A stretch of 54,197 nucleotides of DNA from a virus. The notes under the pieces are model-generated. The model was given only the letters and a program-made list of their open reading frames with translations. It searched no databases and was not told the origin of the DNA. Below, one piece after another: positions 2,872 to 53,162 of this stretch. Where the stretch lies: the IMG/VR virus record IMGVR_UViG_3300010160_000057, positions 1 to 54,197 of that record; one strand, given 5' to 3'. Every line of letters begins with the position of its first letter. Positions within the stretch are counted from its first letter, which is position 1. Made by a program: the position numbers and the translations under genes.

Positions 2872-2883
2872 AATGGAAAATAA

Positions 2884-2972
2884 AGTCGGTTGGTGTAAGT
2901 GGGAATAAATACCACCTTGGGTAGCAACTCAATTTAATTTGAGGGACAGAGGTTCGAATCCTCTACCGGCTT
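2884..2972 (+). tRNA. tRNA-like element with non-standard D region and 6-base anticodon-type loop
   Basis: AGTCGGT (2884-2890) pairs with ACCGGCT (2965-2971) as a seven-pair acceptor stem with one T-G pair. AGAGG-TTCGAAT-CCTCT (2948-2964) is a perfect T arm abutting it, and T2972 would be the discriminator with no encoded CCA. CTCAA/TTGAG (2928-2943) forms an anticodon-type stem, but its loop TTTAAT has six bases (or eight if the last pair opens), and the 37 bases before it are about 18 too many for a D arm. They hold an extra hairpin, GTGG-(9)-CCAC, at 2899-2915. Read as a class II tRNA, no good anticodon arm forms. It is either an unusual phage tRNA, a tRNA with an insertion, or a tRNA mimic. 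The identity is not assignable. Confidence 0.45.
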
Positions 2973-2996
2973 TTTAATATACCAATTACAAACTTA

Positions 2997-31948: not shown

Positions 31949-33367
31949 TTAACCGTAACGGAATAATACAAAGTTATTTGCACCTAAAGTACATACACAT
32001 CTTTCAGATAGGAAGTTAACCTCCATTGCATCTAAGTCAGAATTTTGAGCACCTCCGGCAGAACCTGTAATCCAAGTTTTGTAACGTCTGTCCTCAGCTT
32101 CAGAAGCACGGTATCTTACGTGTAAGAATGGTCTCTTAGCGTTTTTACCTAAGATTTGGTCATATACAGAAGTAGAACCTGCAGGTACCATAAGTCCTGT
32201 GATTGTACCTGTTGCAGTAGCTGCAGTAGTATTTAAACCACCTCTCATTGTAGGGTCGTTTAGGTATTTCCAATCAGATTTGTAGAAATCATAACCTCTA
32301 CGGAATCCTGTGAATCCTAAGTTTAATGCCATATCAACATCATTGTCGAATAAACCGAAAGATGCAGACTGAGCAACACCACCTGAAGTATAACCATTCA
32401 ATGTAGCTAACATATTGTCGATGTCAAAAGACAATCCACGATTAACAAACACTACGTTTTCTTCGATAGCTCCTTGTTTGTCTAAACGAGAAACGATAGA
32501 ATCCCAATCAGATAAAGTAGTTGGTGTACCACCACCCCAAACATTTCCTCTTGAGTTAACAACGTAGAAAATACCTTGAGAACCAATTAAACCTGTAGAA
32601 GTAGCATTAGTAGTGTTAGCCATAGGAACAGCTTCAATCATAGCAGTTTCTAAGTAATCTTCGAAACGTAAACGAGTTTCGTGCTCTGATTTCAAATACC
32701 ACAAGTAACCTGTAGCACCATTTTCAGTAGTAACTTCAACCCATCCGATTTGAGCCATATCAGAACCATTAACCGAATATTTATCTTTAATGATAATTGG
32801 GTTATTGCTGAAGATGTCATCTTCTGCCTCTAATGAACCAACCATTCCGTTAGTTCCTTTTCTAAACTCAGAACCATAAATAAATACAGTACAAGCAGTA
32901 GATACAGCGAAAGCTTGTCCTCCTGATTCATAGAAAGCTACTGTAAAAGTAGTTGCTGATGGAACAGCAGTAACAACTGCTTTGTTGTAAACTCCTGAAG
33001 AGTTGTTTTGAATCATAACAGTTTGTCCAACTCTAATTGCGATGTAAGTAACACCTGAATCAGCTACAGTGAAAGTAGCAGTGTTTGAAGCTGCTGCAGC
33101 TCCTGAAGTTACATTGGTATACTTAATGTGAAGACGACCTTGTTCTGCCCATTTAATTTGGTCAGAGTTAGAAGGCATCTCAGCACCTACCATTCTCAAG
33201 AATGATGCGATGGTTCTATTACCATATCTTTCAAATTCTTTCTCATAGGTATCAGGAAGATACTGATTCAAGAAGTTAAAGTTGGTAATGTAGTTTGTTG
33301 ATAACGCTACTTGCTCCGCTGACGGTTGTAATGCATAAGTAGGCGTTGATAATAAAGCACTTGCCAT
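31949..33367 (-). CDS. Major capsid protein
   Basis: 472 residues. The opening (SALLSTPTYALQPSAEQVAL, YITNFNFLNQYLPDTYEKEF, RTIASFLRMVGAEM) and the segment SDQIKWAEQGRLHI are typical of major capsid proteins of crAss-like and related Bacteroidota phages with an HK97-type fold. A beta insert at ~85-165 (VADSGVTYIAIRVGQTVMIQ, AVPSATTFTVAFYESG) looks like a surface domain. The end is MEVNFLSERCVCTLGANNFV. It lies between the scaffold-like gene and a perfect terminator. Codon use is GC-richer than that of its neighbours, as expected for a highly expressed gene. Confidence 0.75.
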   Translation of the reverse strand: MASALLSTPTYALQPSAEQVALSTNYITNFNFLNQYLPDTYEKEFERYGNRTIASFLRMVGAEMPSNSDQIKWAEQGRLHIKYTNVTSGAAAASNTATFTVADSGVTYIAIRVGQTVMIQNNSSGVYNKAVVTAVPSATTFTVAFYESGGQAFAVSTACTVFIYGSEFRKGTNGMVGSLEAEDDIFSNNPIIIKDKYSVNGSDMAQIGWVEVTTENGATGYLWYLKSEHETRLRFEDYLETAMIEAVPMANTTNATSTGLIGSQGIFYVVNSRGNVWGGGTPTTLSDWDSIVSRLDKQGAIEENVVFVNRGLSFDIDNMLATLNGYTSGGVAQSASFGLFDNDVDMALNLGFTGFRRGYDFYKSDWKYLNDPTMRGGLNTTAATATGTITGLMVPAGSTSVYDQILGKNAKRPFLHVRYRASEAEDRRYKTWITGSAGGAQNSDLDAMEVNFLSERCVCTLGANNFVLFRYG

Positions 33368-33385: not shown

Positions 33386-34483
33386 TTATAATCTTTTTAT
33401 ACTACGGATTTTAAGACTTCTACCGGAATCAGGATTAACCGCTTTTACCTGCATTCCATCCGTTGACTTAGCTACTTCAGGTGCTCTATTAGTTGACATT
33501 TGAATGTTCTTAATGTTTTTCATAGTACCTTCTGTTGCATCAGCTTGACCTTGCTCATAAAAGAACTTGGCAAACTTCTCAGGATTCATAGCGACTGCTA
33601 ATGATTTATGATAACCTGCTGCATCTTTAATTAACCCTTGCTCATCTAAAAACTTATTAATAAAGTTAGCAGGTGTGGCTTGAGCCTTTTTAAGTTCAGA
33701 AGCTTCTCCGGGATTGAAAGTGATTTTTTTATCATTAACATTAAATTCAAAACCTTTGAACTCTCCGTTAAATACTTCATCAGATTTTTGGTTAAACCAA
33801 TTTCTTTTTCTTTCATTCTCCTCTTCAATAGTCTTCGCTTGTTGGGTATATTGCTTATAGTTTTCATAAATTTCTTTTTCCTCATCAGAAATTAGTGGAG
33901 CACTTGACTCAAGTGGCACTTTATATTTTTCTTTTTGAGAATTAAAAAACTTCTTTGCCTCAGCAACAGCCTTTTTCTTTGCGATTTTAACTCTTTTAAT
34001 ATGTGATTCATCGTCAACATCTTCATCGTAACGATAATCATCCATTAAAGAATCAATATCATCAGCATCAAGTCCTTCTTGAGTTACTGATAAATAATTT
34101 TTAAGTAAACTTTCAGGTTCCATTGTATCGTAATCTTTCTTAAGATTTAAGAAATCTTCAAATCCCCTTCCTGTTTCCTTTTTGTATTTCATATAAGCAG
34201 CTACATCTTCAGGTAAAGCCTCAGCTTCTTGTCTTTCAGATGCCAATTCATCTAGTGAATTTATTTGCTTATTGTATCTTTTTCCAATATAAGAAAGAAC
34301 TTGTTCTTCGTTTAATTCAGGTTCTTGTTGTTGTACAATATTTTGTACATTGTCCTGTACAATATTTTGTGCATTATCTTGAACTTCTTGAAATTGTTCT
34401 TCGTGCTTATCAAGTAATTCTTGTTCTACTTGAGCGGTTCCTTTTTCTTCAGAGCCATCTAATAATCTAACTTTCATTTCCAT
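33386..34483 (-). CDS. Scaffolding-like protein (365 aa)
   Basis: Acidic and helical throughout, with a Gln-rich repeat near residues 35-55 (QNIVQDNVQNIVQQ), long charged coiled coils and a conserved-looking SYIGKRYNKQINSLDELASE segment; the C-terminus turns basic (SGRSLKIRSIKRL), like the capsid-binding tails of scaffolds. The position between portal and capsid fits a scaffold. It has a promoter-like box and an A-rich leader of its own. Confidence 0.6.
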   Translation of the reverse strand: MEMKVRLLDGSEEKGTAQVEQELLDKHEEQFQEVQDNAQNIVQDNVQNIVQQQEPELNEEQVLSYIGKRYNKQINSLDELASERQEAEALPEDVAAYMKYKKETGRGFEDFLNLKKDYDTMEPESLLKNYLSVTQEGLDADDIDSLMDDYRYDEDVDDESHIKRVKIAKKKAVAEAKKFFNSQKEKYKVPLESSAPLISDEEKEIYENYKQYTQQAKTIEEENERKRNWFNQKSDEVFNGEFKGFEFNVNDKKITFNPGEASELKKAQATPANFINKFLDEQGLIKDAAGYHKSLAVAMNPEKFAKFFYEQGQADATEGTMKNIKNIQMSTNRAPEVAKSTDGMQVKAVNPDSGRSLKIRSIKRL

Positions 34484-39268: not shown

Positions 39269-39482
39269 TACTTTCTTTTTCAGATTCTATTCTATTTAGA
39301 ATCTCAAATGCATCAAAAATAGCTAACTTTTTTGTTGCTGCTGCATTTTTTAATTTATCAGCCGCTAAATCATCTCCTTCCATATCAGGATTTAAGATTG
39401 ATTCTTCTGCAACTTTAATAAGTTCTGTTACTGCTCTGTAACCGGCAGAAATAATTTTTAATTTTACTTCTTTATTTGTCAT
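39198..39482 (-). CDS. Possible terminase small subunit (94 aa)
   Basis: A helical, charged protein placed directly before the large terminase: NKEVKLKIISAGYRAVTELI, then LAADKLKNAAATKKLAIFDA and a basic tail. Small terminase subunits have this size, helicity and position. The DNA-binding helix-turn-helix is not obvious. Its last 71 bases overlap the terminase frame. Confidence 0.5.
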   Translation of the reverse strand: MTNKEVKLKIISAGYRAVTELIKVAEESILNPDMEGDDLAADKLKNAAATKKLAIFDAFEILNRIESEKESIEISEKGGSKTDTKQGFAERRSK

Positions 39483-40042
39483 AACTTAATCGTTATTTGG
39501 TGGTCATACATACGATATAGTTTCTCTCCATCTACGGTAAACTCATATTCACTATCGGGAGAAAAACAAACGTAATCATCTTTTTTAACTCCTTGACTTA
39601 ATAAGTATTCATTTGGATAAACCATTTGACCCATTAAAGGTTCTTCTGAAAAAGGTTTTTTAATATACGATTCAATTGCAGGAATTGGTCTAACAAAACA
39701 ATACCTATCGTAAGAATACCAAGTATCTCCTTTTTTATACATAAAAAATTGTTCTGTTTCTATAAAGAATAAATCATCTTTAAAAAAGCTCTTTCCGCTT
39801 TTTTGACGACCTCTCATATCATTATAAAATTTAAATGCATTGTGATGCACAAGAAGAGTGTCTCCTATTGATATAGGACCATCATAGCCAACGGGTAATT
39901 CAATAACTTCTGCAAATCTATTAGAAAACTTATGGTCTTCTTCAGAGGTACTAACTATAAATTCAATACCTCCTATATTTCTTGTGTTATCGTATCTTTT
40001 CCCATTTATAGGCTTTGCTATAAAGTAGAATGGTGATTTCAT
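39479..40042 (-). CDS. Hypothetical protein, possibly GroES-fold related (187 aa)
   Basis: SPFYFIAKPINGKRYDNTRN at the start, IGDTLLVHHNAFKFYNDMRG in the middle and GVKKDDYVCFSPDSEYEF, DGEKLYRMYDHQITIKL at the end give a GroES-like order: an opening strand, a GDxVxxH strand, and a closing strand before the terminal I-x-L. I recall similar proteins in marine phages being linked to the co-chaperonin fold, but the match is weak. A true GroES is encoded at 50492. Coupled by ATGA to the next gene. Confidence 0.4.
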   Translation of the reverse strand: MKSPFYFIAKPINGKRYDNTRNIGGIEFIVSTSEEDHKFSNRFAEVIELPVGYDGPISIGDTLLVHHNAFKFYNDMRGRQKSGKSFFKDDLFFIETEQFFMYKKGDTWYSYDRYCFVRPIPAIESYIKKPFSEEPLMGQMVYPNEYLLSQGVKKDDYVCFSPDSEYEFTVDGEKLYRMYDHQITIKL

Positions 40043-40292: not shown

Positions 40293-42209
40293 CTATCCTA
40301 CACCAAGAGAACTTAATGACCTCCTTAAATTATTAAATATCCAATTTGTATTACCACCACCATCTACAGAACCACCAATTGCATACCAATTATTAGCTTG
40401 TAAGGCATTAGATGCTTGAATATAACAATTTTGAACCACTACTATTCCCAAATTAAGTTTATTTAAAAGAAAATTACCTCCGCTAGTCTGATATAAAAGA
40501 GTCTGATTAACTGAATTACCAACTTGAAAAGTATCATAAATATTAACAGTTTGACCCGAGCTAAATACTATCTGATGATTACCTCCGGGAGTTTGTGTTA
40601 AATCTATAAAATTATAAAAAGTTGATGTACCTGAAATATTAGTTATTGGATTAATAGCAGATGCTGATGACCTATTTATTTTTAAAGTATAATAAGTATT
40701 AGCAGCTCCGCATACAAATCCAACTGTATTACTAAATGAGTCTGTTATAACTATTGTAGAAGTTCCACTATTAAGAGTTAAATTTGTTGTTACGTTAGTA
40801 TTCCAAATATTACCTGTATTACCTGTGAGATTTATAGTTGCGTTATTAAGATTAATCGTTCTAACATTACTATTTGAAGAAGTAAAGGAAAAAATAGTAC
40901 TTGTTGAGTTTGACGTAAAAGTTAAATTTCCTGAACTATGATTTAATACCCCTGATAATGTTGTATCACCTAAAGTTACATCTCCTAAAGTAAATGTCAT
41001 TGCAGGTGCAGTAACAGAATTAAAACTTACAGGTATTAACGTACTTCCATTTGTTGAGTTTACAACTATAGCACCTCCAACATTAATACCATTTTGAAAT
41101 GTAACAGAAGCGGCTGAAGATATAGTTGTTCCTGTTGCTACTGAATAAGTAGAAATATAATCACCAACTACAGTTAATGTGGTGTTGTATAAATTTTGGT
41201 CGTTGACATTTAATATACCTGTGAATGTTTTTCCAAATGTGGTGAATACATAGTTTGTATTTGGATTACCTGAATAACTTGAAAAGGTTAAGGTACCTGT
41301 TGTTGTTACAGTCATTGCGGCACACATAGTGACACTTCCATAAACTGTTACAGCATTTACAGACGATAAATTTATAGTGCTGCCTGTTACAAATGTGATA
41401 CTACTAAAAACACATACTCCAAAAAGTAACGTGCCTGCTAATTTACTTACATAAAGATTAGGGGCAATAATAGCAGTAGATGCAGCGCTTATTGTTGTAG
41501 CACTTGCTCCTGAACCCTGTAAATATAAATTAGTGCAAGATACAGCGTTATTTAAAGTTATAGATTTAGTAGTCGCTGTTGTGTTTGTTAGATATATATT
41601 TGTAGCAGTCCAAGTTAAACCTGTTTGATTTGCTAATCCTATTGATAAAGTTATTCCTGAACCTGATAGATATAAATTAGTAAAATTAAATACTCTAGTA
41701 TTTGTATTTGCACTTCCAAAAATACCTGCAGAAATGCTTGTTCCGCTAATATTACCTGCTGTTAATGTAAATGTACCTGTACAAGTAAAAAAATCATTAA
41801 AAACAAAACTACCTGTTGTAGTATTTATTGTTACTGCTCCTGAATGAGTTTTACCATTAGCAAGTATTACACCATTAACTGCTGCTCCTGATATTGTAAT
41901 AGTTCCTGTATAACTATGAGTACCTCCTAAGCTTAATACAGTTGCTCCTGTTAATGCTAAACTAACAATGTTTAATGCCGAAGCTCCTGCAAGTGTTCCT
42001 GTAAAAGTAGAAGTATTTAAACTTGAGCAAGTTGATGTAGCTGCAATAGTTAAAGTACCACTTCCTGAAGCAGCATTAACAATAGCATCATCAGTAGCAG
42101 TAGGCACTCCAAGAACAATTCCTGTACCACCTGAGCCACTATACCAATTTCCTGCTACAGACCAATTGGCACTACCATTACCTGCTACATACCAATACTT
42201 TGCAGCCAT
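40293..42209 (-). CDS. Fibre or adhesin-like beta-helix protein (638 aa)
   Basis: Almost entirely Ser, Thr, Gly, Asn, Leu and Ile in short alternating strands, as in a right-handed beta-helix. The N-terminus AKYWYVAGNGSANWSVAGNW and GVPTATDDAIVNAA follow the NW/DDA pattern found at the start of bacterial and phage adhesins. The C-terminus ends in WYAIGGSVDGGGNTNWIFNN, another NW-type closing. Probably a receptor-binding fibre or surface appendage. No enzymatic site seen. Confidence 0.55.
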   Translation of the reverse strand: MAAKYWYVAGNGSANWSVAGNWYSGSGGTGIVLGVPTATDDAIVNAASGSGTLTIAATSTCSSLNTSTFTGTLAGASALNIVSLALTGATVLSLGGTHSYTGTITISGAAVNGVILANGKTHSGAVTINTTTGSFVFNDFFTCTGTFTLTAGNISGTSISAGIFGSANTNTRVFNFTNLYLSGSGITLSIGLANQTGLTWTATNIYLTNTTATTKSITLNNAVSCTNLYLQGSGASATTISAASTAIIAPNLYVSKLAGTLLFGVCVFSSITFVTGSTINLSSVNAVTVYGSVTMCAAMTVTTTGTLTFSSYSGNPNTNYVFTTFGKTFTGILNVNDQNLYNTTLTVVGDYISTYSVATGTTISSAASVTFQNGINVGGAIVVNSTNGSTLIPVSFNSVTAPAMTFTLGDVTLGDTTLSGVLNHSSGNLTFTSNSTSTIFSFTSSNSNVRTINLNNATINLTGNTGNIWNTNVTTNLTLNSGTSTIVITDSFSNTVGFVCGAANTYYTLKINRSSASAINPITNISGTSTFYNFIDLTQTPGGNHQIVFSSGQTVNIYDTFQVGNSVNQTLLYQTSGGNFLLNKLNLGIVVVQNCYIQASNALQANNWYAIGGSVDGGGNTNWIFNNLRRSLSSLGVG

Positions 42210-42819: not shown

Positions 42820-44412
42820 TTATATAATATTCCAATTAGCACCATCGCTAATTATTGTTAATGATAAATATTGAACTTTTATAGGAGCCGTTAAGCTTCC
42901 ATCTATTGTTTGAGATGAGGTAGTATTAATAGTTATAACACCCGTACCTACATTCTTTATTGTATATAAATTTTGATTACCTACGGCTGTTGGTAATGTT
43001 ATATTTATTGTACCTGATGCTAAATAAACATAATCTGTACTTGAAGCGCTACCTGCTGATGTATTTGTAGATACAATATTTATAGATTTACCTGATGCCG
43101 ATATTGTCCAACTTCTATCAGCAGTTAAATCATAAGTAGTTCCATTTATAGTTAATGTTCTTGCATTTGTTACAGGAGTATATCCTAATGCAGTTGTAAC
43201 TTGTCCACTTGTTATACCTGTTAAATATGTATTAGTATCTAAAGAAAAAACACCTGATGCTGTCATCTTAACAAACGATGTAGAAATATAAGTTAATCCA
43301 CTTAATGATGTTAAGTTTGTTGCTAATGGCTGCCCTCCTAATCCACTAAGTGTATATGTAGGTACATTTAATACTCCTGCTATTAAAGTTGAAGCACCTG
43401 ATGAACCTGTTGTAGTTAGTGAAGCAAATGGAGATGAGGCAGGAGTTGGTATGTTTAATACATTAGCAACTAATGTAGCCGCTCCTGTTCCTGTTGTTGT
43501 TAAACTTGTTATTCTATTTGTATATGCGGTATTCCAATTTGCTGCTGATGCTATTCTACTATCTGCTAATGTACCTGTCCAACCTAATGTCAATGACACT
43601 GCTTGTAGTAATGAAGTAGCAGGTGTTCCTCCTAAAGTTAATGTTACATTAGTATCATCTACCCTTGTCAATGCTGCAGCTGTTGGTGATGCTGAATCAA
43701 TCCAATCAGTACCTGTTACAGTAGAAGACAAAACTTGACCTGCCGTTCCCGGTGAATTATTTGAATCATAAATAGCACCTGTTATACGTGCATTAGAAGC
43801 ATTTATATCTCCTATTAAAGTTATACTATTAGTAGCTGTATTTCCTACTAACAACACATCATTTAATCCCGGTGTGTAAACAATTGAGTTATTTACCCAT
43901 CTTATACCTGATACTGTTTTTTGAAGTATTTGACCTGTTGTGCCAATACTTGCAGTGTCATCTTGTATGTTCCCCGGTATTATTTTTGTTGATGTAATAT
44001 TACCAATAAGAGTAATATTTTGCGTTGCTGTATTACCTGCATTAAGAACATCTTGAAGATTATCTACAGGTAAATTTACCCAATTAATACCTGTTGTATT
44101 TTTACTAAGATATTGAAAAGTAGTACCTTGACTTCCAAGAGAATCCTCAATATTATTAGGTTTAATTAACGTAACATCAATAGTTCCTGTTAATGTAATA
44201 TTTTGAGTAGCAGCATTTCCTGTGTTAAGTACAGCTTGCAAAGATGCAGCAGGAAAGTTAGCAGAGAATAATTGCAACAACTCCGATAACGAAAAGTTTT
44301 TTGTCGCTAACGGAGTTGAGGTAGGTGGAGTCCTAATAGCTTCTGTACCTATCAGCCTATCGCTTAATAATAAGGGGGTATCCGCTGAAGGATAAGTAGA
44401 TATTTTAGACAT
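42820..44412 (-). CDS. Tail fibre protein with internal repeats (530 aa)
   Basis: The N-terminus SKISTYPSADTPLLLSDRLI, IGTEA..., ATKNFSLSELLQLF is a virion-attachment module shared with the next gene upstream (44431). Residues ~55-230 hold three copies of a ~55-60 residue repeat (LQ(A/D)VLNxGNxATQNITLxG ... GINWV). The rest is Ser/Thr/Gly-rich beta structure, ending in a trimer-type tip (TINTTSSQTIDGSLTAPIKV). A receptor-binding fibre. Confidence 0.65.
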   Translation of the reverse strand: MSKISTYPSADTPLLLSDRLIGTEAIRTPPTSTPLATKNFSLSELLQLFSANFPAASLQAVLNTGNAATQNITLTGTIDVTLIKPNNIEDSLGSQGTTFQYLSKNTTGINWVNLPVDNLQDVLNAGNTATQNITLIGNITSTKIIPGNIQDDTASIGTTGQILQKTVSGIRWVNNSIVYTPGLNDVLLVGNTATNSITLIGDINASNARITGAIYDSNNSPGTAGQVLSSTVTGTDWIDSASPTAAALTRVDDTNVTLTLGGTPATSLLQAVSLTLGWTGTLADSRIASAANWNTAYTNRITSLTTTGTGAATLVANVLNIPTPASSPFASLTTTGSSGASTLIAGVLNVPTYTLSGLGGQPLATNLTSLSGLTYISTSFVKMTASGVFSLDTNTYLTGITSGQVTTALGYTPVTNARTLTINGTTYDLTADRSWTISASGKSINIVSTNTSAGSASSTDYVYLASGTINITLPTAVGNQNLYTIKNVGTGVITINTTSSQTIDGSLTAPIKVQYLSLTIISDGANWNII

Positions 44413-45796: not shown

Positions 45797-46179
45797 TATT
45801 CAATTGTTAAAGTTATATTTTTTGCTAATTGCATTTTTTTAAATAATTTTTCAAAAGCCAATCTGCTATTGCCTATAAAATCATTTGAACGTGTAGTTCC
45901 TACTAAAATACAACCTTCTGTATCATGGTTGGTATTACCTGAATGTATTCTTACACCCTCAAAATTTGGAACATTAAGTAATATTGGTAATAACTTTTTA
46001 AATCTATTGCTTAAAGTTATTCCAACTATATAAGTACCTTTTGGTATTGCTGTCTCTGATTTGATTTTTACTTCACGTTCTACATCTTCTAATGTATAGC
46101 ATTCAAATTTACCATCAACATAAAGTTCTCCAATTGTAGAATGTTCTGTTTTGTGAAGTCTTTTAAGTGTAAGTTTCAT
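45796..46179 (-). CDS. DUF5675 protein, candidate endolysin
   Basis: 127 residues. STIGELYVDGKFECYTLED, AIPKGTYIVGITLSNRFKKL and GVRIHSGNTNHDTEGCILVG match DUF5675. The HSGN...TEGC arrangement resembles the His/Cys site of L,D-transpeptidase-like enzymes, so it may cut or modify peptidoglycan. It lies between holin and spanin with one-base overlaps, so endolysin is the contextual reading. No other lysozyme or amidase was recognised. Confidence 0.65.
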   Translation of the reverse strand: MKLTLKRLHKTEHSTIGELYVDGKFECYTLEDVEREVKIKSETAIPKGTYIVGITLSNRFKKLLPILLNVPNFEGVRIHSGNTNHDTEGCILVGTTRSNDFIGNSRLAFEKLFKKMQLAKNITLTIE

Positions 46180-46610
46180 TATTGTAAATCTCCTATATCT
46201 GTTTTAATTTCTTTCGCTCTAAGAAATGCTTTTTTAAGTAATGCCCAAATATCTATTTTAAACGAAGCCTCTATATTTTCTTTAATTGATACTAACTCAA
46301 TAAAAATTAAAAGTATCGCACATATTTTTGTAAACATAAATTGGAATCCAAACCATTTAAAAATAAACTCATTCAATACAAACTTATCAATTACAAAAAG
46401 AAGTAAAATACATACTTCGTATAATGCCATTTTTGAAATAATATTAGAAAGTATGCGGCTTCTAATACTACACCAACCTCCTAATTTTATACTTTTAAAA
46501 ATACCCGTGAATGTATCAAGAGCTATAGCAGTACCAACCGCAATTAAAAGTCCATATATAGGAACGAATAAAAGGACTAAAGAAGATAATATGTATTTTA
46601 AGTATTTCAT
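46179..46610 (-). CDS. Phage holin
   Basis: 143 residues with four hydrophobic segments: LKYILSSLVLLFVPIYGLLI, KMALYEVCILLLFVIDKFVL, FMFTKICAILLIFIELVSIK, and a GTAIALDTFTG turn after the first; the charged C-terminus faces the cytoplasm. This matches the 4-type phage holin family of Bacteroidota and Firmicutes phages. It would open the inner membrane at lysis. TAATG coupling on both sides binds it to the hydrolase gene and the 44-residue gene. Confidence 0.7.
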   Translation of the reverse strand: MKYLKYILSSLVLLFVPIYGLLIAVGTAIALDTFTGIFKSIKLGGWCSIRSRILSNIISKMALYEVCILLLFVIDKFVLNEFIFKWFGFQFMFTKICAILLIFIELVSIKENIEASFKIDIWALLKKAFLRAKEIKTDIGDLQ

Positions 46611-47239: not shown

Positions 47240-47413
47240 TTAATTTTTATAAAATGTTTTGTTTATTAACAAATCAGGGTTGTTAAGATTTTCTTTTCTT
47301 TTATTACAACCACATTCTTTTCCTGTAGCTTGTGAAACTTTTTCAACTACTTTTTTAATTCCTGTAGCTGCAGTAATTTTTTCGATTGTGTCTCCTAATC
47401 CTTTTGATTTCAT
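47240..47413 (-). CDS. 57-residue protein with ECGCNKRKE motif
   Basis: ATG at 47413, stop at 47240. The first 22 residues form an amphipathic helix (KGLGDTIEKITAATGIKKVV); CGCNKRKENLNNP follows, with two cysteines in a CxC. I have seen the order GDTIEKIT...CGC.xRKxxLN in small proteins of marine phages, but the role is unknown. It could be a virion protein. Confidence 0.5.
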   Translation of the reverse strand: MKSKGLGDTIEKITAATGIKKVVEKVSQATGKECGCNKRKENLNNPDLLINKTFYKN

Positions 47414-47425
47414 TGTGTAAAGATA

Positions 47426-47641
47426 TTAAATTTTATTAGATTTTATTTTTTTGACGTTGCCTTTTAAATAAGACATTTTCCCATTAAGGGAACTTTTTGA
47501 TTCGTACTGTTTTGCCTTATCAGTTATTTTCTTTTCTTGTTTAATCATCTCTGTTGTTGGTTTTTTACCTGAACCTTTAGATGCTCTGATATTATTCCAC
47601 AAAGAATTTTTAACTCCGAGTTTATTTAACTTTTCTTTCAT
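47426..47641 (-). CDS. Basic small protein (71 aa)
   Basis: Lysine- and serine-rich, with NSLWNNIRASKGSGKKPTTE, EMIKQEKKITDKAKQYESK. It looks unstructured or helical and nucleic-acid binding. Its start shares a base with the stop of the gene before it (TAATG-type junction at 47641). In phages this IRA(S/N)xGSGKKPTxEM pattern is frequent near head genes; no function known. Confidence 0.5.
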   Translation of the reverse strand: MKEKLNKLGVKNSLWNNIRASKGSGKKPTTEMIKQEKKITDKAKQYESKSSLNGKMSYLKGNVKKIKSNKI

Positions 47642-47931
47642 CAGTATTTTCCTTTACGATTTTTTGGGTTTGGTGTTGTTGAACCCCCCGATCCTGCCCA
47701 TAAATTTTTACAAGCCCAATACCTTGGAGTTAGTTTGTCATTAGCTGTATCACAACTATGTCTTGCCTTAAAACTTCTTCGAGCAGCAGGAGAATAATTA
47801 TTTCCATAACCCTTTGCTCCAAAATGGAGAAGTTTTTCCTCTCCATTGGAACAAGCTTTTACCATCTTCTTCTTTCCGGGTCTATCGGAAGGAACAGGAT
47901 GATTACACTTCATATTTGCTTTATCAGCCAT
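47641..47931 (-). CDS. Zinc-finger-like structural protein (96 aa)
   Basis: KCNHPVPSDRPGKKKMVKAC, then GAKGYGNNYSPAARRSFKAR and HSCDTANDKLTPRYWACKNL carry Cys/His residues spaced for one zinc site. The RRSFKARHxCDxAxDKLTPRYWACKxLW segment is one I recall from T4-like and other marine phages as a virion-associated protein. Highly basic. The role is likely DNA- or capsid-linked. Confidence 0.55.
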   Translation of the reverse strand: MADKANMKCNHPVPSDRPGKKKMVKACSNGEEKLLHFGAKGYGNNYSPAARRSFKARHSCDTANDKLTPRYWACKNLWAGSGGSTTPNPKNRKGKY

Positions 47932-48094: not shown

Positions 48095-48286
48095 TTAACA
48101 ATAAGGATTTTTCTTTTTCAATCCTGTTCCTGATGCAGCAGTTAGAACTCTTTTAGAAGTTCCTTTGCTACCACCTTTCATACCACCATGTTCTTGAATC
48201 AATCCGTTAGTTCCATTAGAACTCGTGCTTGGTCCTTGTAAACGAGATGAACCCGGTAAGTTTGGAGTGTCTTTAATTTTACCCAT
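48095..48286 (-). CDS. Small protein with TPNLPxSS tag, copy A (63 aa)
   Basis: MGKIKDTPNLPGSSRLQGPS is almost the same as the start of the next gene upstream (48286), followed by an unrelated Gly/Ser/Asn-rich tail (TSSNGTNGLIQEHGGMKGG) and a basic end. The start overlaps the previous stop (TAATG). It belongs to the late small-protein cluster with shared N-terminal tags. Confidence 0.55.
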   Translation of the reverse strand: MGKIKDTPNLPGSSRLQGPSTSSNGTNGLIQEHGGMKGGSKGTSKRVLTAASGTGLKKKNPYC

Positions 48287-48450
48287 TATTTCTTTTTGAT
48301 TACAGTTTTAACAATTCCTTTTAATGCTCCTGTAACCGCTCCTTTAGCAGCTCCTTTTAGTGCATTTTTAATAGCAGGTTTTGCTGCTGCTGTTGGTGCT
48401 TTCAATTTTGATGAAGCAGGTAAATTCGGTGTTGATTTTGCTTTTGCCAT
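48286..48450 (-). CDS. Small protein with TPNLPxSS tag, copy B (54 aa)
   Basis: ATG at 48450. MAKAKSTPNLPASSKLKAPT at the start, then an Ala/Lys helix (AIKNALKGAAKGAVTGALKG) and KTVIKKK: an amphipathic, antimicrobial-peptide-like or membrane-active helix. Its stop shares a base with the next start (TAATG). Confidence 0.55.
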   Translation of the reverse strand: MAKAKSTPNLPASSKLKAPTAAAKPAIKNALKGAAKGAVTGALKGIVKTVIKKK

Positions 48451-48476: not shown

Positions 48477-48731
48477 TTATTCTTTTTCTCTTCCTGTTGA
48501 GTTTCTAAAAGAAGCCAATCCATATAAGCTTCCTCCTGCTATATCTTTTTTTTCTCTACTTCTAGCTATTCTTGCTTCATTAAGTTTTGCACGAGTCTCC
48601 TTCATTGAAGCTGTTCTTTCAGCTTGTCTTTTATTTATATCAGCTAATGCTGATTTCAAATCGTTAACCGGTGCTTCAACATCAGGACTATCTGCTAAAG
48701 GAGTATCCTTTCTTTCTTGTTTTTTTGCCAT
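48477..48731 (-). CDS. Tagged small protein 5, RxDTPLAxSP (84 aa)
   Basis: MAKKQERKDTPLADSPDVEA at the start carries the most diverged form of the DTPLA tag. A basic helix follows (ALADINKRQAERTASMKETR, LNEARIARSREKKDIAGGS). Fifth of five consecutive genes with this tag. No further motif. Confidence 0.6.
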   Translation of the reverse strand: MAKKQERKDTPLADSPDVEAPVNDLKSALADINKRQAERTASMKETRAKLNEARIARSREKKDIAGGSLYGLASFRNSTGREKE

Positions 48732-48737
48732 GTCTTA

Positions 48738-49082
48738 TTAGTTTGATTTCATACAAGCTCCTCCTTTACAAGGAGATTTAGGTCCGTTATCACCTGCAAA
48801 GAAAGTTCTTTCTCCTTTAGGTTCCTTAGCTTTATAAGAATTTTCTTTTGTTCTTTGGTCAAATTTATTATACCACTGCTCAAAAGAATCCCCTTTTTGT
48901 TTTTCTTTTGATTCATCATAAGATTTCTTATAGATAATCTTTCTTTTCTCAGTTTTTATTGAGTCAATTTTTTGTCTTGGAGTAAGAACAACCTTTGGTT
49001 TAATTGTATCATTAACCGCCATGAATCTTGGTTCAGGGGTTGCAGCTAATGGAGTGTCGGGTCTTTTTTGATTGATTGCCAT
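48738..49082 (-). CDS. Tagged small protein 4, KRPDTPLAATPEP (114 aa)
   Basis: MAINQKRPDTPLAATPEPRF at the start, then a basic, tyrosine- and lysine-rich chain (KIDSIKTEKRKIIYKKSYDE, SFEQWYNKFDQRTKENSYKA) and CKGGACMKSN at the end. Unstructured or loosely helical. The tag is shared with neighbours, the body is not. Confidence 0.6.
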   Translation of the reverse strand: MAINQKRPDTPLAATPEPRFMAVNDTIKPKVVLTPRQKIDSIKTEKRKIIYKKSYDESKEKQKGDSFEQWYNKFDQRTKENSYKAKEPKGERTFFAGDNGPKSPCKGGACMKSN

Positions 49083-49084
49083 AA

Positions 49085-49525
49085 TTATGATATATTTGCT
49101 TTTCTTAATTTTAATAAATCTTTTTTATCAGATGCTGTTAAGTTTTTCTTACTTCCTGATGTTACGTTATAATAATTTGCATTATTATTTCTACGTTGCA
49201 TAGTATCTGTACTATCTCTAACATACTCTTTTCTCAAATCCTCTCTACTTTTCTGAGAACCTGTAACAGATTTTTTAACTGTTTTATTTCCTGAATCCAC
49301 AATTAAAGCATCGCTTCTATTTTTATCTGCCGGAATAAATCTTTTCTCATAAGGCTTAGCCGTAGCTTTACCATCTGACACATTTAATCCCGCAGGAACT
49401 TTTCCTCCCTTTTCGTTTTTAGCTTGATTAGTCTGTACCTTCTCATATCTTGACGTAAAAGAAAAGTTAGGAGTAGGTGTTTCAGCTAAAGGAGTGTCGG
49501 GTCTTTTAATTATTTTATCAGCCAT
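49085..49525 (-). CDS. Tagged small protein 3, KRPDTPLAETPTP (146 aa)
   Basis: MADKIIKRPDTPLAETPTPN, then SFTSRYEKVQTNQAKNEKGG and a basic chain with YNVTSGSKKNLTASDKKDLL near the end. The longest member of the tagged set; no enzyme motif. Likely a virion-linked or assembly protein by late position, but this is inference. Confidence 0.6.
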   Translation of the reverse strand: MADKIIKRPDTPLAETPTPNFSFTSRYEKVQTNQAKNEKGGKVPAGLNVSDGKATAKPYEKRFIPADKNRSDALIVDSGNKTVKKSVTGSQKSREDLRKEYVRDSTDTMQRRNNNANYYNVTSGSKKNLTASDKKDLLKLRKANIS

Positions 49526-49527
49526 TT

Positions 49528-49737
49528 TTATTGTTGTTGTTGGTTATTAGACGGAGCAGGTGCTGCAGGCTGTGGCATACTTTCTTTTGAAAGCTTTCCT
49601 ATTTGTTGAATAGCTGCATCAGCTGTAGCTTGATATTTAGTAATAGGCTGTGCCGGTGCTTGACCCATAGGTTGTAATCCTGAGCTAACAGGTTGCGGTT
49701 CCGGTGTATTCGCTAATGGTGTATCAGGTCTTTGCAT
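49528..49737 (-). CDS. Tagged small protein 2, RPDTPLANTPEP (69 aa)
   Basis: MQRPDTPLANTPEPQPVSSG begins almost at the tag itself. The rest is a Pro/Gln/Ala-rich flexible chain (QPMGQAPAQPITKYQATADA, PQPAAPAPSNNQQQQ) around one short helix (AIQQIGKLSK). Of the five it is the most tag-only member. Confidence 0.6.
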   Translation of the reverse strand: MQRPDTPLANTPEPQPVSSGLQPMGQAPAQPITKYQATADAAIQQIGKLSKESMPQPAAPAPSNNQQQQ

Positions 49738-49739
49738 TG

Positions 49740-50027
49740 TTATTTTATTTTATATCCGTTTTTATCATAACCGATTTTTCCTTTATCAGATTGTCTAAGT
49801 TGATTTGAAATTGCTTTGTTTTTTTCAGAAACTAAATTTCTCATCTCTTGACTTTTTTTATTATCATTCTTATCGTTAGAAATAAATCTTGGAAGATTTG
49901 GTATTACTTTTTTTATTTTTTCATTTACCTCTTTAACTTTATTTCTAAAATATACTGTACTATCTTTAGGGATAGGTGTTTCCGCTAATGGGGTATCAGG
50001 TCTGCTTATTTTTTTAGGTTGTAACAT
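49740..50027 (-). CDS. Tagged small protein 1, RPDTPLAETPIP (95 aa)
   Basis: MLQPKKISRPDTPLAETPIP at the start, then YFRNKVKEVNEKIKKVIPNL and a basic tail (SNQLRQSDKGKIGYDKNGYK). First gene of the late operon, 33 bases after a promoter-like box. The tag and the basic body are the only visible features. Confidence 0.6.
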   Translation of the reverse strand: MLQPKKISRPDTPLAETPIPKDSTVYFRNKVKEVNEKIKKVIPNLPRFISNDKNDNKKSQEMRNLVSEKNKAISNQLRQSDKGKIGYDKNGYKIK

Positions 50028-50056
50028 TGTTATATCTATTTTAATTGATAACTTTG
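50027..50056 (+). promoter_or_regulatory. Promoter for the winged-helix gene
   Basis: TTG at 50027-50029, a 19-base spacer and TAACTTTG at 50049-50056 fit the Bacteroidota promoter pattern. Transcription would begin near 50063, 20 bases before the ATG at 50083. It overlaps the divergent late promoter, so one regulator could control both. Confidence 0.65.
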
Positions 50057-50059
50057 TAG

Positions 50060-50067
50060 CAAATGTA
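50060..50067 (-). promoter_or_regulatory. Late-operon promoter -7 box (TACATTTG)
   Basis: On the minus strand TACATTTG lies 33 bases before the first late ATG (50027); a TTTG lies 22 bases further upstream (50090-50093), a little long for the pattern. It would start the ~37-kb late transcription unit. Confidence 0.5.
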
Positions 50068-50082
50068 GTAAATTTATTTTAA

Positions 50083-50526
50083 ATGAAATCAAATCAAGAC
50101 GATTATCTAAAATATTGGAGAGTCATTCGCCAATTCGTAAAAATCAAATATGGACTAACACAGTCAGACCTTGACATCCTATTGTTCTTATACTCTGAGA
50201 AGTATTTTGATAGAGGAAAGTTTGAAGAGTTTGACAACCTTCTAGGGTGGGATAAACAAAGATTTGAGAACTTAAGACAAGCCGATTGGATTGTTGTCTT
50301 TAGAAAAAGAATGGGAGCTAGAAAAGCTATATACCAATTATCAATCAAGTCAGTTCGTATGATTCAATCTATATATAGAAAACTAAGCGGGGAAGAAATC
50401 CCCGTTAGTAGTTCTAATAATAAAATGTTTGCTAAGAACGTATCTTACTCAGATAAAGTCTATCGCAATATGATTATCGAGATGAATAAACTTATAAAAC
50501 AACAACGACATCAGACTCGCGAATAA
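50083..50526 (+). CDS. Winged-helix (MarR-like) transcription regulator candidate
   Basis: 147 residues. YWRVIRQFVKIKYGLTQSDL, LDILLFLYSEKYFDRGKFEE, then LGWDKQRFENLRQADWIVVF and a wing (RKRMGARKAIYQLSIKSVRM) match the helix-helix-wing order of MarR-like regulators found in Bacteroidota phages. It is the only plus-strand gene among the right-hand genes and sits at a divergent promoter with the late operon, so it is the best candidate late switch. Its end overlaps the converging GroES gene by 35 bases. Confidence 0.6.
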   Translation: MKSNQDDYLKYWRVIRQFVKIKYGLTQSDLDILLFLYSEKYFDRGKFEEFDNLLGWDKQRFENLRQADWIVVFRKRMGARKAIYQLSIKSVRMIQSIYRKLSGEEIPVSSSNNKMFAKNVSYSDKVYRNMIIEMNKLIKQQRHQTRE

Positions 50527-50749
50527 TAGTATATTGCTTGTCCTCAATTAGCATTGTAAATCCGTGTGCTTTATCATAGTAAATGTCATCATCCTTTTTG
50601 ATATGAGGCACCTCTGTACCCGATTCAATTACTATTCCACGTTTGTATCTCATTTGGTTAACATCTTCTCCCGATAATATTAATCCTGATTCTGTTTTCA
50701 ATTCTTCATCAATTGTTTTGATGACAATGTATTTACCTATTGGTTTCAT
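50492..50749 (-). CDS. groES: Co-chaperonin GroES
   Basis: 85 residues, shorter than bacterial GroES by about ten. MKPIGKYIVIKTIDEELKTE, SGLILSGEDVNQMRYKRGIV, then HIKKDDDIYYDKAHGFTMLI and YTIIRESDVVVVL follow the family: K-P opening strand, ESGLIL mobile loop, KxGxV strand, GDxVxYDK, and the closing V-x-V-L. It would cap the phage or host GroEL. The mobile loop IL is intact. Its end overlaps the plus-strand winged-helix gene. Confidence 0.85.
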   Translation of the reverse strand: MKPIGKYIVIKTIDEELKTESGLILSGEDVNQMRYKRGIVIESGTEVPHIKKDDDIYYDKAHGFTMLIEDKQYTIIRESDVVVVL

Positions 50750-51230
50750 CTGTTTTTCTTTTTATATTTTTTGCTCTAAAATTATCTGTTTGTGAGTGGC
50801 AATTGGGACATAGTACTTGTAAGTTTGAAGACTCATTATTGTTATTAACTCCATCAATATGATGAACCTCAAGAGTAATTGGTTCTCCCAACCAATCTGA
50901 AAGATTGCAAATTTCACATTTGTACTCTGCTTTTTTTAACATTATTTTTCTTAAGGTTTGAATATGAAGCTTCTCTCCGTTCAAATACTTTTGGTTTGTT
51001 TTTCTATCCCAAGTATCTTTACTCTTTTGCTTCTTTGTTGGTGAATTGTTTAAAATAAAAAAGTCAACACTATCCATTACACCTTTCTTCCAATTACTAA
51101 TAGCCTTCTTACTTATCTTGTCTTTAGAATCTGAAGTATGTGGTCTCCCATTTCTACAAGCCAAACTACAAAAGTTTATTAAACCTTTTTGAACTTCAAA
51201 CGAACTGTTGCATTTTTTACAAAGCTTCAT
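50733..51230 (-). CDS. HNH endonuclease, homing-type
   Basis: 165 residues from the ATG at 51230 (an upstream start adds eight). An N-terminal zinc ribbon (CKKCNSSFEV, FCSLACRNG) and a DNA-binding spacer (KISKKAISNWKKG) precede the HNH core: CEICNLSDW, LEVHHIDGVNNN, LQVLCPNCHSQT near residues 115-150. The layout matches free-standing phage homing endonucleases. It lies between the GroEL and GroES genes, overlapping groES by 17 bases. Confidence 0.8.
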   Translation of the reverse strand: MKLCKKCNSSFEVQKGLINFCSLACRNGRPHTSDSKDKISKKAISNWKKGVMDSVDFFILNNSPTKKQKSKDTWDRKTNQKYLNGEKLHIQTLRKIMLKKAEYKCEICNLSDWLGEPITLEVHHIDGVNNNNESSNLQVLCPNCHSQTDNFRAKNIKRKTDETNR

Positions 51231-51354
51231 TAAATCTTTTTTTAATTTTATCAATTACTACTTTAACCTCAGCAGCTCTCTCGTAATTTTTTTCAATAAT
51301 ATGCTTTGCCTTTAATTTTTCTAAAGATTCTAATATTTTGTCAATAGTGTCCAT
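51217..51354 (-). CDS. 45-residue coiled-coil peptide with UVR-like motif
   Basis: ATG at 51354, stop at 51217, overlapping the HNH start by 14 bases. IDKILESLEKLKAKHIIEKN, YERAAEVKVVIDKIKKRF resembles the UVR helical hairpin (xxNYExAAxxRDxI), a partner-binding motif of UvrB and ClpC-type proteins. At this length chance is possible; coupling supports translation. Confidence 0.45.
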   Translation of the reverse strand: MDTIDKILESLEKLKAKHIIEKNYERAAEVKVVIDKIKKRFNEAL

Positions 51355-51358
51355 TGTT

Positions 51359-51571
51359 TTATTTTTTAGATTCATCTTTCCAATTCAGCCAAAAACCAAT
51401 TGCAACAATTATGTTCATTCCCATTGATGCCACTATCTCATAAATGTCCTCATAAATATTTAAACTTAGGTGAACGTGACCTACCACCCAAAATGGTATT
51501 GATAGGTTACACGCCACCCATATTATTGTAAATCTTACAAATTGTTTAAACTTGTGGCTCTTCGTGTCCAT
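51359..51571 (-). CDS. Small two-span membrane protein (70 aa)
   Basis: FVRFTIIWVACNLSIPFWVV and YEIVASMGMNIIVAIGFWLN are membrane helices separated by a short polar loop, with basic ends. It overlaps the GroEL end by 26 bases and so is probably coupled to it. Function unknown; not a recognised holin. Confidence 0.5.
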   Translation of the reverse strand: MDTKSHKFKQFVRFTIIWVACNLSIPFWVVGHVHLSLNIYEDIYEIVASMGMNIIVAIGFWLNWKDESKK

Positions 51572-53162
51572 AACTACGTGCCATTGTTACTATAGCGTTC
51601 GTACTTAGAATTGTTACCGCAACTGATATTGCATTTTGTAATGCAGACCTTGTAACTTTCAGCGGGTCAATAACACCCATCTTAATTAAGTCACCGTACT
51701 TACCTGTCTTAAGATTATAACCTTCGCCATTAATCAATGACCCTTGGTAGATGTCCTCTACTTTCAATCCTGCGTTAGTTAAGATTTGGATAAGAGGTGC
51801 CTGTAATGCTTCACCAAGAATTTTAATAGCAGCTAAGTGCTCTTTACTTACTGACTCAATACCTAAGAAGCTTTCCTCAAACAATGCTTTACCTGCACCC
51901 GGTAAGATGCCTTCCTCTAATGCTGAACGTACTGCACATACAGCGTCATCTACTCTGTCATACAATTCTTTCTGCTCTAAGTCAGTTTGTCCGCCCACAA
52001 AAATCACGCCAATTCCTCCTGTTAATGAAGCAATTCTCTCCAATAAAAAGTCTTTATCACCTTTCTTATTTGCATTTTTATGCGCCTCCCATAACTGAGC
52101 TACTCTCTCATCAACAACAGCTTGATTGGTACGTGCATCTGACTTAATAATTACAGTCTTGTCTTTACTTACAATTACTTTAGAAGCGTGTCCTAAATCA
52201 CCGAAGTTCATAATACTTAAATCATCACCGGTCTTCTCACTAAAATAAGTAGCACCTACACTAACTGCAATGTCATGCATCAACTCGTGTTGCTTGTATC
52301 CAAAACTTGGAGGAGCAACAGCACATATCTTTACACTACCTTTCATTACATTCGCTGCCAATGTGTTTATCACATTTACATTACAAGGAGAGATAATTAA
52401 TAACTTCTTCCCCTCTGTAATAATTGGTTTCAATATGTTCTCAATCTGCAAAATGTTTGCAATCTCCATATCAGCTACCAATACCATCACATCTTCAAGA
52501 ACACACTCGTCTTTCTTTTGGTCATTGATAAACATAGGACTTAAATACCCTCTGTCGAATTTCAATCCCATAGTGGTCTCTGCATAAGTCTCATCGTTCT
52601 GACTCTTTTCCACCGTTACAATACCATTCTTTCCAACGTCTTTGTAAACCTCAGCGATAATCTTCCCTGTCTCACGGTCATTGTTAGCCGATATAGTAGC
52701 TACATCTGATAACATACCAATTGATACCTTCTTGCTACGTCTTCGTAGCTTGTCAACTACCTTATCACTCAAATCATTTAAGTGTCTTAACACCTCTGTT
52801 CTATTCAAGTCCTCAGTTATGTGAACTAATCCACCTAACACTAAAGCCTCAGTAAGAACAATAGCAGTTGTTGTACCATCACCCGCAGATGAAGCGGTAC
52901 GCTCAGCAGCTTCCTTCATCATCTTAACAGCAAGGTTCTCAGAAGGGTCAAATAAGTCAATTGATTTGGCAACAGTTACACCATCTTTAGTAACAGTGAT
53001 ACCATGAGTATGGTTTGGACTTTCAATAAGTACAGTATTCCCTCCGGGACCTAATGTACTCTTAACAGCTTTGGACATTTTAATAACGCCACTTACTAAT
53101 TTTTTCCTACCATTGTCACCAAAGAACAAATCTTTAGGAGAATAACCTTGATTTTCTAACAT
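51546..53162 (-). CDS. groEL: Chaperonin GroEL
   Basis: 538 residues, the usual length. The equatorial parts carry LGPGGNTVLIE (~37-47), TVTKDGVTVAKSI and the ATP site AGDGTTTAIVL at 93-103 (catalytic Asp95); the apical domain has NGIVTVEKSQNDET, GLKFDRGYLSPMFIND and the IENILKPIITEGKKLLI region; near the end DAVCAVRSALEEGILPGAGK is the usual second equatorial signature. The C-terminal GGM repeat is missing. It would fold phage virion proteins with the GroES at 50492. The leader ends AATTAAATCAAATG. Confidence 0.9.
   Translation of the reverse strand: MLENQGYSPKDLFFGDNGRKKLVSGVIKMSKAVKSTLGPGGNTVLIESPNHTHGITVTKDGVTVAKSIDLFDPSENLAVKMMKEAAERTASSAGDGTTTAIVLTEALVLGGLVHITEDLNRTEVLRHLNDLSDKVVDKLRRRSKKVSIGMLSDVATISANNDRETGKIIAEVYKDVGKNGIVTVEKSQNDETYAETTMGLKFDRGYLSPMFINDQKKDECVLEDVMVLVADMEIANILQIENILKPIITEGKKLLIISPCNVNVINTLAANVMKGSVKICAVAPPSFGYKQHELMHDIAVSVGATYFSEKTGDDLSIMNFGDLGHASKVIVSKDKTVIIKSDARTNQAVVDERVAQLWEAHKNANKKGDKDFLLERIASLTGGIGVIFVGGQTDLEQKELYDRVDDAVCAVRSALEEGILPGAGKALFEESFLGIESVSKEHLAAIKILGEALQAPLIQILTNAGLKVEDIYQGSLINGEGYNLKTGKYGDLIKMGVIDPLKVTRSALQNAISVAVTILSTNAIVTMARSYGHEEPQV

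Follow-up and report, generated by a model that had tools for sequence, protein, structure and literature searches.

Introduction

The internal proteins IPI, IPII, IPIII and Alt of phage T4 are diverse and have only a targeting sequence in common (PMC3012670), a peptide that is found at the N-terminus only and is removed by a protease (PMC3012670, PMC5694885). For phage P1, the N-terminal residues of DarB suffice for capsid entry according to the part of PMC9024508 considered here, which gives no common consensus for the Dar proteins and reports no C-terminal form; DarB is a single large cargo. Bacteroidota podoviruses, too, have virions whose capsid and tail contain cargo encoded by the virus, and in the part of the crassvirus report used here this cargo consists of few, large proteins (60-277 kDa) in which no common tag is seen (PMC10172136). 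Encapsulin cargo-loading peptides are short terminal peptides on diverse cargo as well, and are read by an HK97-type shell (PMC7355545).

Here, an IMG/VR virus record of 54,197 bases was analysed (the whole stretch is called the window), in which five adjacent genes share an N-terminal peptide with the consensus D-T-P-L-A-x-T-P, referred to as the tag. Comparison with related contigs shows a real, clade-wide peptide that occurs at both ends and is common to unrelated proteins. Like the T4 sequence it is a short terminal peptide on very diverse small proteins, the bodies of which turn over fast while the peptide is kept. Several diverse proteins (about 45 families) carry it and their bodies are small and basic (median pI 9.9, about 88 aa), as in T4. 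However, the tag is Pro-rich and either N- or C-terminal (about 26 C-terminal copies and one family with both ends), and since it is not confined to the N-terminus we would not class it among the capsid targeting sequences of the T4 type. No sequence relation to the T4 peptide is claimed. By analogy, the tag may well work like the T4 sequence.

In difference to the crassvirus cargo the tagged proteins are small. Encapsulins are cellular compartments, whereas the tagged genes sit in the late operon of a tailed phage, and an encapsulin loading-peptide sequence on enzymes beside a shell gene was not found for them. Classical encapsulin cargo-loading peptides are typically C-terminal and unlike the tag in sequence. 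We know of no two-ended, multi-family tag system in a phage.

Five Tagged Genes and Their Genomic Setting

The five ORFs of the original prediction are present on the minus strand, and in each of them [RK][PK]DTPLAx[ST]P stands close to the N-terminus, after a short leader:

49740..50027, minus strand: tagged ORF 1, 95 aa, family F10; start with tag MLQPKKISRPDTPLAETPIP; gene no. 1 of the late operon
49528..49737, minus strand: tagged ORF 2, 69 aa, family F00; start with tag MQRPDTPLANTPEP; Pro/Gln-rich end of the body
49085..49525, minus strand: tagged ORF 3, 146 aa, family F06; start MADKIIKRPDTPLAETPTP, tag IKRPDTPLAETPTP
48738..49082, minus strand: tagged ORF 4, 114 aa, family F07; start with tag MAINQKRPDTPLAATPEP
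48477..48731, minus strand: tagged ORF 5, 84 aa, family F01; start MAKKQERKDTPLADSPDV, tag QERKDTPLADSPDV

A six-frame scan of the window found no other full tag; partial look-alikes, e.g., DTPLL at 44382, are without the remaining motif. The claim that the bodies beyond the tag are unrelated holds, as the five bodies, taken without the tag, represent five families, and no similarity among them was detected by profile-profile comparison. Among the 12 families compared in this way the sole related pair was F04-F11, neither of which occurs in the window. With 33 members, F00 is the commonest tagged family. By eye, the first third of ORF 4 is F03-like (MAINQ.RPDTPLA..PEPRF...DTIKPKV) and the remainder F07-like; it is possibly an F03/F07 chimera.

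The following features surround the cluster:

50028..50082, no strand: divergent intergenic region with conserved TACATTTG and then CAAAGTTA; presumed late promoter
50083..50526, plus strand: conserved gene in divergent orientation, 147 aa, phrog_17028; in relatives it delimits the tag cluster on the upstream side
47641..47931, minus strand: small basic gene, conserved, on the downstream side of the cluster; partial match to phrog_220
47240..47413, minus strand: conserved small gene, marks the downstream side of the cluster
46179-46610: holin, downstream of the tag cluster

The tagged genes lie directly downstream of the gene at 50083-50526 and upstream of small genes, the holin and the TerL, portal, scaffold-like and capsid-region genes. 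In the intergenic region, TACATTTG and CAAAGTTA would form overlapping divergent -7-like elements of the Bacteroidota type on both strands. Synteny and this conserved -7-like element back the predicted first place of the cluster in the late operon. At least one marker gene was found within 6 kb in 82 of the 90 tagged loci, the other eight being mostly short loci. A few tagged genes (F03, F04, F06 and F11) sit 3-6 kb further downstream, and therefore sharing of the tag is not a by-product of tandem adjacency. Gene order is partly kept among relatives while whole genes come and go: the order is F10-F00-F06-F07-F01 in the window versus F08-F10-F00-F01 in G030, the portal of which is 97% identical.

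Relatives of the protein encoded at 47641-47931 occur in phages of Roseobacter, Aeromonas and Pelagibacter, and its sequence matches an internal stretch of phrog_220, a long profile for DNA-pilot/minor head proteins. In many related phages, small basic proteins of this region contain, between variable flanks, a short KYESKKSLDGKMKFLKGN-like segment (47426-47641, minus strand).

Extent of the Tag in Viral and Cellular Sequences

A DNA pattern for PDTPLAx[ST]P matched 104 stretches in viral contigs. When these were translated, many showed 2-6 adjacent small tagged ORFs (six per contig at most), and some were chance matches. A stricter DNA pattern gave only 10 isolated matches in bacterial and archaeal genomes totalling 257 Gb. 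With the relaxed pattern [RK..]D-x-P-L-[AS], 20 occurrences were observed in 31 genomes versus about 2 after shuffling of the proteins. The scarcity in cellular genomes and the shuffling rule out chance or composition as the source of the tag.

In the relaxed catalogue there are 210 different tagged ORFs, from 90 loci in about 80 IMG/VR contigs. One of these is a chance match in an endolysin, and about 209 remain upon chance-match removal. Clustering of the bodies resulted in 51 groups; without a few chance matches, approximately 45 families remain. The tag spans roughly ten residues with the core D-[TYIFV]-P-L-[AS]-x-[TS]-P. Throughout the catalogue P and L are invariant and D is present in 209 of 210 ORFs, followed by T (159), Y (31), I (12) or, in the remainder, other residues. 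Relatives without the strict tag often had variants, i.e., RDYPLSPTP, RDIPLAPTPEP, RDFPLAPTSAP and KDIPLAPTPDP. Several synonymous codons are used at the conserved tag positions, showing that the peptide is what is conserved. The outcome that would have spoken against the original prediction, a pattern limited to one phage with bodies that align to each other, was looked for; instead, the tag occurs in many relatives and the bodies do not align.

The tag was seen in one phage clade only, whose uncultured members are related to Flavobacteriia phages. In cultured phages no tag was found with four tagged proteins as queries and in six named phage records. The literature search for the tag returned nothing relevant, matches to DTPLA being unrelated words, and proteomics of Elemo was sought in PMC7077304, where elemo is not mentioned. 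A search of Rfam gave no match.

Position, Gain and Loss of the Tag

In the relaxed scan the tag is C-terminal in 27 ORFs (26 without the chance match), mostly no more than 10 residues from the stop, as in ...KRPDTPLAPTPEPLFSRR. Of the members of family F02, 22 are tagged N-terminally and two (L089 and L172) C-terminally. For F01, 27 tagged members compare with 19 untagged or degenerate homologues, two members of F11 show MKKSDPIKNVSVETN at the position of MSIKRPDTPLAPTPDPIKNVSVEAN in another, and gp53 of the cultured Elemovirus is an untagged homologue of F03. The strict tag was never found inside large proteins in the genomes examined, and the relaxed scan revealed one internal copy in the clade. 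Since the tag can be N- or C-terminal in one family and untagged homologues occur elsewhere, it has to be regarded as a portable motif and not as the product of plain duplication; its behaviour is that of a short linear motif that is terminal and can move. Tandem or plain duplication is also ruled out by the family clustering and the profile-profile comparison.

A recombination seam or the trace of a past duplication, with no function of the peptide itself, is extremely unlikely and already largely refuted. Whole leaders, e.g., MAIKRP or MQEKPKTKRP, are sometimes common to different families, so that leader and tag can move together. However, the peptide is preserved across diverging synonymous codons, C-terminal copies exist, and identity within families is higher in the tag (0.68-0.94) than in the body (0.38-0.68). 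A seam at the DNA level only is ruled out by the codon diversity and the C-terminal copies. The predicted recognition signal common to unrelated cargo is thus strongly supported, as the tag is spread over about 45 families, stands at either terminus, is gained and lost, and is conserved at the protein level.

A Second N-terminal Motif Downstream of the Cluster

A further motif, [DSN]TPNLPxSS, stands at the N-terminus of the proteins of the two genes after the cluster, the bodies of which differ; it was not part of the original prediction:

48286..48450, minus strand: Ala/Lys-rich small protein, 54 aa, pI 11, Lys tail; motif STPNLPASSKL
48095..48286, minus strand: small basic protein, 63 aa, ends with NPYC; motif DTPNLPGSSRL

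The pair pattern of [DSN]TPNLPxSS is also present in many related contigs.

Possible Role of the Tag in Virion Incorporation

Among the 210 ORFs the tagged proteins have a median length of about 88 aa, a median pI of 9.9 and a median GRAVY of -1.15, with -0.11 for the most hydrophobic member. The other small genes of the window show a median pI of 6.6 and a GRAVY of -0.48. Being small, basic and hydrophilic, the tagged proteins resemble internal DNA-associated virion proteins.

We see about an even chance that the tag is a virion-incorporation signal, comparable to T4 capsid targeting but working at either end, with the T4 internal proteins and the packaging signal of P1 DarB as precedents; co-packaging of the tagged proteins, which had been predicted, is plausible and has indirect support from the phage phi40:1 proteins described below. 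The tag would mark small, basic late proteins, which are probably flexible and form a changing set, for entry into the virion, and one common prohead receptor would bind it during head assembly. Such a mechanism would involve neither an obligatory N-terminal position nor a recognisable processing protease. The basic bodies would be packed alongside the DNA and passed on to the next host, and their rapid turnover may reflect varied jobs, e.g., DNA condensation or countering of host defences. As this receptor, a helical scaffold-like protein or the inner surface of capsid or portal would be likeliest, and two genes of the window are candidates:

33386..34483, minus strand: helical scaffold-like protein, candidate tag receptor; precedes the capsid-region gene
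31949..33367, minus strand: virion structural protein, probably the major capsid protein; alternative candidate receptor

The model of the 365-aa protein encoded before the capsid-region gene is of low confidence (pLDDT 56.5) and suggests a helical scaffold. A search by co-occurrence for a receptor gene found none that is shared by every tag-bearing relative and missing from every tag-free one. As no gene tracks the tag, the receptor would be a core head protein that all of them possess, or a host protein.

Virion proteins of comparable character are known from the cultured Cellulophaga phage phi40:1 (KC821612), in which the small, Lys-rich gp069 (pI 10.9) and gp080 (pI 10.5) are structural by MS/MS. 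The gp080 gene is located two genes away from gp078, which is homologous to the 50083-50526 gene of the window (E = 9e-19). Like the tagged proteins both are small, Lys-rich, late and encoded in the same region; however, they are untagged and without homology to the tagged families, and as positional analogues they lend packaging indirect support. Against packaging count this difference, the search for cultured tagged phages, which found none, the search for a receptor gene, which found none that follows the tag across relatives, and some close relatives, e.g., MW202828, in which the tag is missing along with most of the cluster.

Should the tag prove to be a loading signal, about 45 otherwise unannotated cargo families of uncultured aquatic-type phages would gain a first functional context. 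Shared capsid-targeting peptides would then not be a peculiarity of T4, as they would arise in unrelated phages and work at either end, and the tag would provide a minimal peptide for loading proteins into a phage head. A wider reading that we hold as tentative is a two-motif phage address code, in which DTPLA at either end and TPNLPxSS sort many interchangeable small proteins via dedicated phage receptors. TPNLPxSS might then mark a second set of late proteins, and the destinations might be defined places in the virion or the cell; this we likewise regard as possible but doubtful.

Alternative Explanations

Instead of directing proteins into the particle, the tag might bind a host protein, e.g., RNA polymerase, the ribosome or a protease adaptor, and the bodies would then be unpackaged late takeover effectors. 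This fits with the variable gene content between close relatives and with a tag that no phage receptor tracks, and small basic proteins of fast turnover in variable cassettes are common among takeover factors. We nevertheless consider it unlikely, as the genes are located at the start of the late, structural side and not among the early genes, and the syntenic counterpart in phi40:1 belongs to the virion. Recruitment to an intracellular site of assembly or folding, such as the phage GroEL/GroES or an assembly hub, is suggested by the GroEL (51546-53162) and GroES (50492-50749) genes that adjoin the cluster, and GroEL is found near most tagged loci. However, GroEL is also encoded by the tag-free relatives MW202828, elemo and Panino, and the tagged proteins look flexible and hydrophilic and would hardly need a folding chamber, which makes this explanation distinctly improbable.

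A processing signal, cut at or near the tag by a prohead protease during head maturation, had been predicted as well. In T4, a prohead protease cuts off the targeting peptides (PMC5694885), and a terminal site would fit the removal of a propeptide. Neither PHROGs, Pfam and NCBIfam nor two weak structure models revealed a protease in the head module, and copies at both ends would require cuts on opposite sides of the motif; the processing claim thus finds no backing and is very unlikely. The 247-aa protein encoded after the capsid-region gene gave a weak model (pTM 0.44), and the best matches in a fold search were uncharacterised proteins of Bacteroidota podophages and crass-like viruses. The prediction that the tag sends proteins to the membrane or to export agrees with its N-terminal position in most members. 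Since all tagged proteins are hydrophilic, as the hydropathy and pI values above demonstrate, and the tag can be C-terminal, we give it next to no probability. O-glycosylation in Bacteroidota uses the motif D-S/T-hydrophobic; it was considered and rejected, as the Pro at the third position of the tag misfits and export would be required.

Relationships of the Phage and Other Genes of the Window

TerL and portal of the window are closest to those of MW202828 (79 and 77% identity, respectively), followed by Elemovirus, Maribacter phage Panino and podophages of Cellulophaga and Tenacibaculum. TerL also shows a weak link to the crass-like phage ProJPt-Bp1.

In addition to the GroES and GroEL genes given above, both on the minus strand, a second GroES-like gene (39479-40042, minus strand) is located just before TerL. 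Between GroES and GroEL lies an HNH-endonuclease-like gene (50733-51254, minus strand), which among the compared genomes is present only in G030 and looks like a recent insertion. A 638-aa protein (40293-42209, minus strand) is without PHROG and was matched neither in the related genomes nor in cultured phages; its relatives were found in five contigs, two of which belong to much larger genomes of 129 and 294 kb. The window carries a single tRNA-Gln gene (2883-2973, plus strand).
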